From Algoriphagus hitonicola (GTDB lineage Bacteria; Bacteroidota; Bacteroidia; Cytophagales; Cyclobacteriaceae): a stretch of DNA of 64,000 bases. The stretch's first letter is position 1. The number at the start of each line of letters is the position of its first letter. A program made the translations under genes and the position numbers. This document shows, piece after piece, positions 1-10,022 of the stretch. The DNA lies in the NCBI RefSeq assembly GCF_900113375.1, contig NZ_FOPC01000003.1, positions 1-64,000 on the forward strand, given 5' to 3'. A model generated the notes under the pieces. It had not been told where the DNA came from and did not search any database. It worked only from the letters and a program-made list of their open reading frames with translations.

Positions 1-232
1 CTGCTGTTTGAGATTTGAAATTTCGAACTCCTATCGTAGGATTTTTAATCCGAATTAAAATAGATCGCGCCTTCAGCGCTCCTGCTGTCACCTGAACTAT
101 TTTACCCCTGTGAGTGAGACACTCACAGCGGCATAGGCTATGAACCCTCCAAAGGTTTATCGTATGGATTGCCTTATTATTTGAATGAAATTCTATTTTT
201 TGGAAATAGGAGTCCCTTGGAGGGTTTTTTTG
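1..232. repeat. Palindrome-block repeat, copy A
   Basis: Intergenic block built of small hairpins. Bases 1-108 match 2407-2514 almost exactly. Bases 142-232 match 2568-2655. The 109-141 stretch between them differs and carries the perfect hairpin TGTGAGTG-AGA-CACTCACA (109-127). Other modules are TCCTA-TCG-TAGGA, an AGCGC hairpin lost by one base here, and a long inverted pair ACCCTCCAAAGG ... CCCTTGGAGGG at the two ends of the second part. No coding potential was seen. The block begins at or before the window edge, so its left limit is unknown. Confidence 0.85.
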
Positions 233-2276: not shown

Positions 2277-2406
2277 GATGAGCTTTCCTGCCAAAAAATC
2301 TTTCGGTAGAAAGATAACAAAGCTCAAAGCCTTGGGTTTTTGGTCCTTTTGGGCTAAGCCAAAAGGACAAGAAAAAGAAATCCAAGCGGTATCAGCAGTA
2401 AAACCT

Positions 2407-2655
2407 CTGCTGTTCGAGATTTGAAATTTCGAACTCCTATCGTAGGATTTTTAATCCGAATTAAAATAGATAGCGCCTTCAGCGCTCCTGCTGTCACCTG
2501 AACTATTTTACCCCAAAATTGCATTTTGGGCTATTATCTGTTGCGCCTTCAGCGCAATCCGGTGCTCGAACCCTCCAAGGGTTTATCGTATGGATTGCCT
2601 TATTATTTGAATGAAATTCTATTTTTTGGAAATAGGAATCCCTTGGAGGGTTTTA
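2407..2655. repeat. Palindrome-block repeat, copy C (longest)
   Basis: Contains AGCGC-CTTCA-GCGCT near 2472-2486, then CCCAAAAT-TGC-ATTTTGGG (2512-2530), a ten-base linker, TTGCGC-CTTCA-GCGCAA (2541-2557), and the inverted pair ACCCTCCAAGGG ... CCCTTGGAGGG. Its outer parts equal copy A; the middle differs from copy A by exchange of whole hairpin modules. The region 2020-2764 otherwise holds no gene that can be supported. Confidence 0.85.
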
Positions 2656-8676: not shown

Positions 8677-8689
8677 TATATTTTTTATT

Positions 8690-9000
8690 TGAGGGTATAA
8701 GATCGTGCCTTTGGCACTCTTGGTGGATCCAAATTAATTAATCCCAGAATTTTATTCTGGACTGATATATTTCGTACCCTTGGCACTATGATCTTTCTTA
8801 ATTTTTAAGTAGGTTTTTTTTCTGGTCTTATATTGTTAATGCCTTAGGTACCGAATGTATCTCCTTTAGGCTTAATGCAGGGAATTTTATAGACGTAGAC
8901 TATTGTTGAAAAGCGCTGAAAGCGCGCCCCATACCAGCCCTAAATGGAATTTAGGGTTAATAAGAAAAACACACAATCCCGAGCGTTTAAGGCTCGATCT
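8690..9000. repeat. Palindrome block flanking the RAYT gene, left copy
   Basis: Starts GGTATAAGATCGTGCC and runs right up to the stop codon of the transposase gene at 9001. Hairpins: GTGCC-TTT-GGCAC (8705-8717), CCAGAAT-TTT-ATTCTGG (8744-8760), an imperfect GTACC-CTT-GGCAC near 8774, GCGCT-GAA-AGCGC (8913-8925), CCCTAAAT-GGA-ATTTAGGG (8938-8956) and CGAGC ... GCTCG (8980-8996). Nearly the whole block recurs in the same direction at 9527-9957. Most loops are three bases long. Confidence 0.88.
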
Positions 9001-9447
9001 TCAATCCCAAAGATATTCTTCATCATATTCAATTTTATATTTCTTCAAAAATGTTCGGTATTCTGTTTGAAAATCAAATTTCTTATGGTGCTCAGATTGA
9101 TTCTGAATATATTTTTTCACTGACTCTAATCGAGATTGACTTACAGAAAATACACCATAGCCTTTTTGCCAAGTAAAATTTGGAATTCCAAATTCTTTAA
9201 TTTTTGCGGAGCTAGAAATTTTTATTTTTTGGATCAATTCAGAAATTGATAAGACCCTGGGTAGAGTACAAAGCCAATGGACATGATTTGGCATGATATA
9301 AATTTCTTCTGTATAAGAACCTAAATTTGAGCTTACTTTTACAAAATAGGCTTCGGCGTTAGATCTGGTTTCTTCAGGAATGAGATTCACCCTATTTTTG
9401 GTCGAAAAAACAATATGGAGGTAGACTTTTGACAACGATTGAGGCAT
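9001..9447 (-). CDS. REP-associated tyrosine transposase (RAYT), IS200/Y1 family
   Basis: A 148-residue Y1 HUH transposase. The HUH motif is HVH at 55-57 in the block IMPNHVHWLC, and the likely catalytic tyrosine is Tyr113 in KKYIQNQ, followed by the family ending with paired His (HH at 120-121) and YDEEYLW. Length and motifs are intact, so the protein is probably active. Single-strand cleavage at hairpins is known for the family; the natural substrate here is inferred to be the palindrome blocks on each side. The stop codon touches the left block, and the start lies about 80 bases from the right block. Confidence 0.92.
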   Translation of the reverse strand: MPQSLSKVYLHIVFSTKNRVNLIPEETRSNAEAYFVKVSSNLGSYTEEIYIMPNHVHWLCTLPRVLSISELIQKIKISSSAKIKEFGIPNFTWQKGYGVFSVSQSRLESVKKYIQNQSEHHKKFDFQTEYRTFLKKYKIEYDEEYLWD

Positions 9448-9526
9448 GATTTAAGAGGATTAAAAGGTTAGAAAATATCTCTAATCAACTTTAATGTACA
9501 ATTTCTAATTAAAAAAAATCAATTAT

Positions 9527-9957
9527 GCAGGTATAAGATCGTGCCTTTGGCACTCTTGGTGGATTCTAATTAATTGATCCCAGAATTTTACTCTGGGCTA
9601 TTATGGTTCGTGCCTTCGGCACTTTAAATTTTATTGATAATTACCTGATTTTTTCTAGATGGCTATAGATGATGCCTTTGGCACTCTTGGTGGACCCTAA
9701 TTTATTGGTCCTAGAATTTTATTCTGGTTCGTGCCTTCTGCACTATGATCTATCTTACTATTTAAGCAATTCTTTATCTGGAATTGTATTGTTAATGTCT
9801 TAGGTACCGAATTTATCTCATTTAGGCTTAATGCAGGGAATTTTATAGACGTGGACAATTGTTGAAAAGCGCTGAAAGCGCGCCCTATACCAGCCCTAAA
9901 TGGAATTTAGGGTTAATTAGAAAAACACACAATCCCGAGGGCTGAAGGCGCGATCCA
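9527..9957. repeat. Palindrome block flanking the RAYT gene, right copy
   Basis: Same direction as 8690-9000 but about 120 bases longer because the first half is duplicated internally. Hairpins: GTGCC-TTT-GGCAC (9541-9553), CCCAGA ... TCTGGG (9579-9597), GTGCC-TTC-GGCAC (9610-9622), imperfect ones near 9672, 9714 and 9731, GCGCT-GAA-AGCGC (9869-9881) and CCCTAAAT-GGA-ATTTAGGG (9894-9912). The block fills most of the 575-base gap 9448-10022, which holds no gene. Confidence 0.88.
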
Positions 9958-10022
9958 TGCTATAAAAAATGCCCAGATGACGTTTCTAAGCATTTTTTTA
10001 AGCTTTATATTTATGAATATCT

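Follow-up and report, generated by a model that had tools for sequence, protein, structure and literature searches.

Ordered three-hairpin arms beside an IS200-like Y1 transposase gene of Algoriphagus hitonicola: a probable REPtron-like unit with a link to Acido-Lenti-1

Described systems and the locus

TnpA transposases of the Y1 type bind hairpins of single-stranded DNA (ssDNA), with the bases at the hairpin foot setting the cut and a tyrosine catalysing it (PMC6006769); the proteins of ISDra2 and IS608 are among those that do so (PMC6006769). The subject here is a Y1 gene lying between repeats composed of three-hairpin arms, within a window of 64,000 nucleotides (nt) from Algoriphagus hitonicola (RefSeq assembly GCF_900113375.1, contig NZ_FOPC01000003.1, positions 1 to 64,000 of the forward strand). 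In the IS200/IS605 insertion sequences (IS), IS608 and ISDra2 being of subclass 1.1, the TnpA gene has hairpins on both sides, and for subclass 1.1 Quentin et al. 2018 give 4.8 copies at 99.4% identity (PMC6006769). REPtrons of the E. coli type have a low-copy TnpA_REP (RAYT) gene with the tyrosine motif Y---NP and flanking palindromes of which further copies, often in inverted pairs, lie dispersed, the unit being one hairpin (PMC6006769); the automatic search of Quentin et al. 2018 for such repetitive extragenic palindromes (REPs) accepted only hairpins with GT[AG]G at their foot (PMC6006769). Subclass 1.2 of the same authors, from Cyanobacteria and Bacteroidetes, has Y---Q--HH, 148 amino acids (aa) and few copies that are about 36% identical, and is entered as REP 'no' in the text of their Table 1 (PMC6006769). 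TIRYTs are Y1 genes framed by long inverted repeats (PMC3733652) and were related to subclass 2.1 by Quentin et al. 2018 (PMC6006769). From another direction came the Acido-Lenti-1 motif of Acidobacteria and Lentisphaerae, Rfam family RF01687, which Weinberg et al. 2010 rated as 'probably' RNA.

The present locus shares something with each. Its likeness to a REPtron is in the low-copy Y1 gene and in the flanking palindromes, which recur elsewhere, frequently in inverted pairs, whereas its enzyme is of class 1.2 (Y---Q--HH), its unit is an ordered three-hairpin arm and the GT[AG]G rule does not apply, the foot of the middle hairpin being variable and often AG. Fold, sequence family and hairpins on both sides of the gene recall IS200/IS605; the low copy number, divergent paralogs, three hairpins per side, inverted arms and dispersed gene-free copies do not. 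With subclass 1.2 it has in common the 148 aa, a WQ, Y---Q--HH and few copies at about 36% identity, yet arms are present and relatives occur in many phyla. Long inverted repeats frame the gene as in TIRYTs, though the portion of PMC3733652 that treats those does not describe their repeats as three-hairpin arms. Finally, the 46-nt two-hairpin motif of Acido-Lenti-1 corresponds to the second and third hairpins of the arm, in the same order and with the same 12-nt spacing, and what was a probable RNA there is here part of a transposase-linked DNA repeat.

We consider it probable that the locus is a REPtron-like unit, in which a subclass 1.2 Y1 transposase, one copy per repeat family, has a composite three-hairpin ssDNA arm as its cognate. 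Favoured too, with a little more reserve, is a broader joint claim: that subclass 1.2 transposases of many phyla generally have the ordered arm as their cognate DNA substrate, that RF01687 is two hairpins of that arm and not an RNA gene, and that, next to IS ends and single-hairpin REPs, such arms make up a third type of Y1-hairpin system.

Architecture of the arms

According to the original prediction, two same-direction blocks share several hairpins in the same order. They do: direct repeats link 8814-8999 with 9770-9955 (91%) and, in a second set, 8682-8760 with 9518-9596 and 9649-9727 (80-85%), and the hairpins gtgccTTTggcac (at 8705 and 9541), gcgctGAAagcgc (8913 and 9869) and ccctaaatGGAatttaggg (8938 and 9894) recur. 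A block was also said to string together at least five different hairpins; it is indeed multi-hairpin, but the repeated unit is an arm of about 94 nt with three hairpins in the fixed order a-b-c, and a block is two such arms in inverted orientation, the right block having three arms of which one (9663-9745) is degenerate. Those touching the gene read c-b-a, gene, a-b-c. Hairpin a (5-base-pair stem, 3-nt loop) follows the foot (T)ACAGATC, b (8 base pairs, 3-4-nt loop) comes about 24 nt after a, and c (5-7 base pairs, 3-nt loop) about 11 nt after b. R1, a covariance model of the arm that was applied to the window, the whole genome and 97 relatives, finds five arms at the locus (8696+, 8911-, 9532+, 9663+, 9867-) and a solo arm elsewhere in the window. 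The window holds no tRNA. The features are as follows.

8690-9004, no strand: left block, on the 3' side of the gene, one arm on the plus strand and one inverted on the minus strand (repeat comparison and R1)
8696-8788, plus strand: arm 1 (a-b-c), a 8705-8717, b 8744-8760, c 8774-8786 (imperfect); R1 78 bits, E = 1.3e-13
8911-9004, minus strand: arm 2, touching the 3' end of the gene, c 8913-8925, b 8938-8956, a about 8980-8996 (imperfect); R1 74 bits
9001-9447, minus strand: tnpA_Y1 gene, subclass 1.2 type, 148 aa, 9001-9003 being the stop codon; Y1_Tnp E = 7.3e-24
9525-9960, no strand: right block, on the 5' side of the gene, three arms (repeat comparison and R1)
9532-9624, plus strand: arm 3, adjoining the 5' end of the gene, a 9541-9553, b 9579-9597, c 9610-9622; R1 84.5 bits, E = 6.4e-15
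9663-9745, plus strand: arm 4, degenerate copy; R1 50.4 bits
9867-9960, minus strand: arm 5, c 9869-9881, b 9894-9912, a about 9939-9951 (imperfect); R1 72.4 bits
2464-2557, plus strand: solo arm with no transposase gene; R1 72.1 bits

Covariation favours the small hairpins, rather than some larger structure, as what is maintained. Arms were gathered from the window gene and 13 orthologs (proteins 59-69% identical), the flanks of ten loci being aligned. Among 26 arms 94.6% of pairs are standard, with 73 two-sided changes versus 27 in shuffles and at most 51.5% pairing in slid versions; for 116 distinct arms from the genus, in an alignment fitted to the structure, 93.3% are paired, with 311 two-sided changes versus 108 shuffled and slid versions at no more than 49.1%. 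The two arms of a block are two sequence versions, different at paired positions, each retaining its own pairing. A block is also an imperfect long palindrome, but its two arms depart from each other systematically at paired positions and pairing persists in every small hairpin; the reading of it as one long cruciform was therefore rejected in favour of local small hairpins. Folded as single strands with DNA parameters, 8911-9004 (a imperfect) and 9532-9624 (b shortened) form three hairpins and 9867-9960 does not; z-scores of the arms run from -1.95 to -4.5. In about one-third of arms, hairpins a and c have a T-G closing pair on the strand with the GAA loop (C-A on the complementary strand), and this may point to the strand that forms the fold. 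GAA triloops form unusually stable DNA mini-hairpins.

The transposase

Pfam Y1_Tnp matches the 148-aa protein at E = 7.3e-24, and the catalytic residues first pointed out, HVH at 55-57 and Tyr113, are there: an intact HUH motif, H55-V56-H57, is accompanied by W93-Q94 and by the tyrosine motif Y113-I-Q-N-Q117-S-E-H120-H121 (YIQNQSEHH, i.e. Y---Q--HH), whose Q117, H120 and H121 are conserved in relatives. The first letter of HuH is N in this protein and D in most relatives. The name RAYT, under which the gene was originally presented, has had to be given up because YIQNQSEHH stands in place of Y---NP and the protein has 34.8 bits with the NCBIfam REP-transposase model NF047646, below its cut-off of 80; it passes the IS200 model NF033573 (66.9 bits, cut-off 55). 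Set against the Table 1 text of Quentin et al. 2018, its Y---Q--HH, length of about 148 aa and WQ are the signature of subclass 1.2. Its own genome has four Y1 genes, the window protein being 35-38% identical to the other three, the low-copy and divergent-paralog pattern; a near-identical second copy is absent from that genome, and with it the sign of IS-like movement in near-identical copies. The protein model, built from a 34-row alignment, is confident (mean pLDDT 89), and its nearest solved folds are the TnpA proteins of ISDra2 and IS608 (2xma, E 2.7e-9), with TnpA_REP (4er8) only at rank 30; a profile search of PDB sequences gave eight matches, all named transposases, IS608 best and TnpA_REP absent among the eight. 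By these features the protein fits an IS200-like HUH Y1 transposase of TnpA_Y1 subclass 1.2, not a RAYT proper.

Recurrence beside related genes

Flanking repeats at related loci are beyond chance. At loci from the genus and order, direct ones are found at 27 of 33 and inverted ones at 25 of 33, versus 2 and 1 of 185 control open reading frames, and the strong covariation points the same way. Their supposed restriction to Bacteroidota is another matter, since the same arm stands beside relatives in Verrucomicrobiota, Planctomycetota, Lentisphaerota and other phyla. Named genomes gave at least 582 matches when scanned; the best 80 of these were kept, and the 80 loci span Bacteroidota, Verrucomicrobiota, Planctomycetota, Lentisphaerota, Acidobacteriota and others; where flanks were usable, 60 of 70 have direct or inverted repeats (Bacteroidota 24/31, others 36/39), versus 4 direct and 7 inverted of 70 in a mismatched-pair control.

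A descriptor of geometry only (stems, loops, spacings), drawn up after inspection of ten named loci, recovers arms in its strict form at 15/33 and 26/80 loci, with none in 150 control windows or 339 dinucleotide shuffles; relaxed, it recovers 16/33 and 41/80, again with 0/150 control windows, being positive at 5 of the 10 pre-inspected loci and 36 of the 70 others. Seventy-three arms from 53 loci have a c-b spacer of 10-12 nt in 56 cases, a b stem of at least 8 base pairs in 69, hairpin a oriented towards the gene in 57, and GAA, AAC or AAA loops at c in 66 and at a in 62 (control triloops 19/262). The foot of hairpin b, the one examined, has G at its first position in 9% of loci and A (61%) and G (57%) at its last two, which is not GT[AG]G. 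Since flanking repeats and arms are found at related loci, the REP 'no' entry for subclass 1.2 would seem to need revision. Two of the three paralogs in the A. hitonicola genome, L006 (C22:80027) and L008 (C27:129686), have three-hairpin arms of their own that differ in sequence, which would suit a separate repeat family for each enzyme. At L211:2001-2450 of Flavipsychrobacter stenotrophus the transposase stretch holds a stop codon, yet the hairpins of both arms are well preserved.

Arms are also found without the gene. As was predicted, the repeat is not confined to the locus: four further clear arms lie elsewhere in the genome (C22:214916, C19:44991, window 2464-2557, C22:345493), with a weak one at C27:6190 (E 0.02). 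Directly adjoining the solo arm at 2464 is a second hairpin array, window 2385-2475, present also at C20:1-69 (window 1-69), C19:44949, C32:1-43, C22:214999, C27:165900 and C17:163717; three of its seven genome matches adjoin solo arms and, since two are at contig ends, the array may break assembly. Among the 97 relatives R1 matches 31, all of the same genus (31 of its 59 genomes), in many also away from the gene. With a close gene taken as E<=1e-29, a cut set after the tables were seen, arms occur in 21/21 genus genomes that have one versus 10/38 others (Fisher 9e-9, post hoc cut, kinship ignored). At 35 of the 44 solo loci searched, arms are in both orientations, and G128 (Verrucomicrobiota) and G102 (Planctomycetota) have gene-free c-b-a, about 30-60 nt, a-b-c units of about 240 nt in total, at 8 of the 18 loci listed (L232-L237, L240, L241; in some of them a is imperfect or the unit is listed only in part), the other loci having single or imperfect arms. 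Inverted arm pairs are common away from the gene, and gene-free arms, often so paired, may be a miniature form like REPINs, in which two REPs in inverted orientation make up the mobile unit.

Acido-Lenti-1

A cmscan search finds that hairpins b and c match RF01687, 'Acido-Lenti-1 RNA', and all four matches in the window (E up to 0.1) coincide with arms.

9579-9623, plus strand: b and c of arm 3; 37.7 bits, curated cut-off 37
8912-8956: in arm 2 (minus strand); 29.3 bits, below cut-off
9868-9912: in arm 5 (minus strand); 32.7 bits, below cut-off
2512-2556: in the solo arm (plus strand); 32.3 bits, below cut-off

Elsewhere, of 32 named loci selected without regard to RF01687, 15 have a match (E<=0.1) no farther than about 160 nt from the gene; in 60 kb of control sequence there is none. 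Of 40 genomes that bear the gene, 31 have RF01687, in 24 of them over cut-off and in up to 95 copies, and it is absent from all 14 control genomes, whose gene content was unchecked; among the 97 relatives it occurs in 34/64 with a Y1 match versus 2/33 without (p=2e-6, uncorrected for kinship). These matches suggest that 'Acido-Lenti-1 RNA' may be a fragment of a DNA element rather than an RNA gene. In the literature, a 2026 paper has its function as little known and protease regulation as a suggestion (PMC13298647), and several copies are on chromosome 1 of Vibrio anguillarum (PMC10059132). Among the papers listed in searches of open-licence PubMed Central, none turned up with a link between Acido-Lenti-1 and a transposase or with the combination of subclass 1.2, three-hairpin arm and RF01687, and a sequence search of papers found no match to the letters of the hairpins.

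Points that weigh against the REPtron-like unit and its generality

Several results pull the other way. Just one of the four RF01687 matches in the window passes the cut-off, by 0.7 bit, and among 20 loci, most of them chosen because they show the arm, RF01687 is over cut-off at 6. In 148 phylum genomes the association is weak: 18/65 with the gene (E<=1e-15) versus 11/83 without (p=0.037, uncorrected) and, over cut-off, 10/65 versus 4/83 (p=0.045); a listed copy is less than 1 kb from the gene in 8 of the 18 genomes positive for both. The RF01687 model covers a single sequence version of the arm, and the arms of other genes differ from it, two of the three paralogs in A. hitonicola having families of their own; this diversity may account for gene-positive genomes that are RF01687-negative. 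Copies in genomes with no gene above cut-off (G014 with 15, G038, G246 with 26, G176, G146) are candidates for orphan repeats or partners of more distant genes.

The descriptor misses about half of the loci and L037 is without a flanking repeat. The expectation that copies track the gene is upheld by the close-gene genomes and borne out imperfectly elsewhere: ten genus genomes have arms but no close gene, and in G019 and G021 a 569-nt repeat bounded by terminal inverted repeats (TIRs) of its own holds many of the arms. Moreover, in A. hitonicola none of the solo arms, four clear and one weak, is paired with another. Arm-richest, in counts limited by 43 scored candidates, are G039 (at least 43), G019 (at least 41) and G021 (at least 40). 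The best-matching Y1 genes of the latter two (L023, L024; 47-48% identical), the only ones checked there, have no adjoining R1 arm. The 569-nt repeat (L081, L083, L084, L090, L102 and others), which carries an arm pair, has the TIR GGATCAGTC(T/C)TAAAAG, which at the loci compared occurs in no genome but these two; the motif was found at 9 of 26 loci fetched, with matching outer sequence at more. The copy translated shows no intact reading frame, and no clear target duplication was seen. Amplification in G019 and G021 was accordingly rejected as proof of activity.

Nor is recent mobility supported. Identity among arm copies is 68-89% within the five genomes checked, which makes the family look old in them. 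When two G058 loci were set against seven other genomes, the sites proved rearranged or shared, none being cleanly empty, and neither insertion nor excision of arms was observed in these site comparisons. Among fetched loci, orthologous sites sharing arms are found in G021 and G019 (L077/L104, L080/L097) and in G033, G056, G004 and G058 (L092, L094, L095, L115; L096/L112); such sharing between species speaks for descent.

Alternative readings

Could the hairpins act as RNA, Acido-Lenti-1 being a real small RNA (sRNA) or a 3' structure that regulates or terminates the transposase transcript? We think this unlikely, yet of the alternatives it survives best. Rfam's class is sRNA and the 2010 rating was 'probably' RNA, some c hairpins read C-UUCG-G on Rfam's strand, two sRNAs regulate the ISPpu9 transposase (PMC8450116), and covariation is unable to separate RNA from ssDNA. 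Arms that flank the gene in opposite orientation (a towards the gene in 57/73) would, however, need transcription from opposite strands, and gene-free inverted pairs and tens of copies per genome are at odds with the idea. The a-b-c strand, which is Rfam's, has 100 A-C versus 22 G-T among its mispaired cells (100 G-T versus 22 A-C on the c-b-a strand), opposite to the preference of an RNA on that strand; 69 of the 100 are in pairs that close a loop, where the choice of loop may be the cause, and the wobble pairs were for this reason rejected as a guide to the strand.

Less probable again is an ordinary IS200/IS605-type IS, still mobile, with the arms as plain subterminal ends and gene-free copies as decay products. 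Family model, sequence and fold do put the protein in class 1 (IS200-like), and inverted arms do frame its gene; but there is no near-identical second gene copy, the paralogs at 35-38% identity are unlike subclass 1.1, each end carries three hairpins, in inverted arms, instead of a single one, and gene-free arms are common. Very improbable is hitchhiking, the transposase being a bystander to arms carried along passively by other mobile repeats or by recombination-driven arrays, for despite the G019 and G021 copies within the TIR-bounded 569-nt repeat and orphan copies with no detected gene (15 in G014, 26 in G246), arms hug the gene in several phyla and two paralogs of one genome have their own hairpin families.

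How the unit may work and what it would mean

If the locus is a REPtron-like unit, an arm would fold as ssDNA wherever replication or repair lays its strand bare, and the protein would recognize it in that folded form. A TnpA dimer might engage hairpins within a single arm or across an inverted pair, with Y113 cutting beside a hairpin foot; cleavage and rejoining would spread gene-free arms around genomes, while the gene would persist as a slowly evolving single copy. Of the suggestion from which this analysis began, a Bacteroidota REPtron with a composite substrate, there remain the REPtron-like locus, the composite multi-hairpin unit and the dispersed gene-free copies; the family name has gone, and the taxonomy has had to be widened.

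Were this reading true, a substrate would be supplied for a transposase group recorded without one, and an explanation for an Rfam family still called little known in 2026 (PMC13298647). Genome annotators would be warned that RF01687 matches mark repeats. And how one small HUH enzyme could read three ordered hairpins becomes a directly testable question, with a protein of 148 aa and oligonucleotides of about 94 nt.
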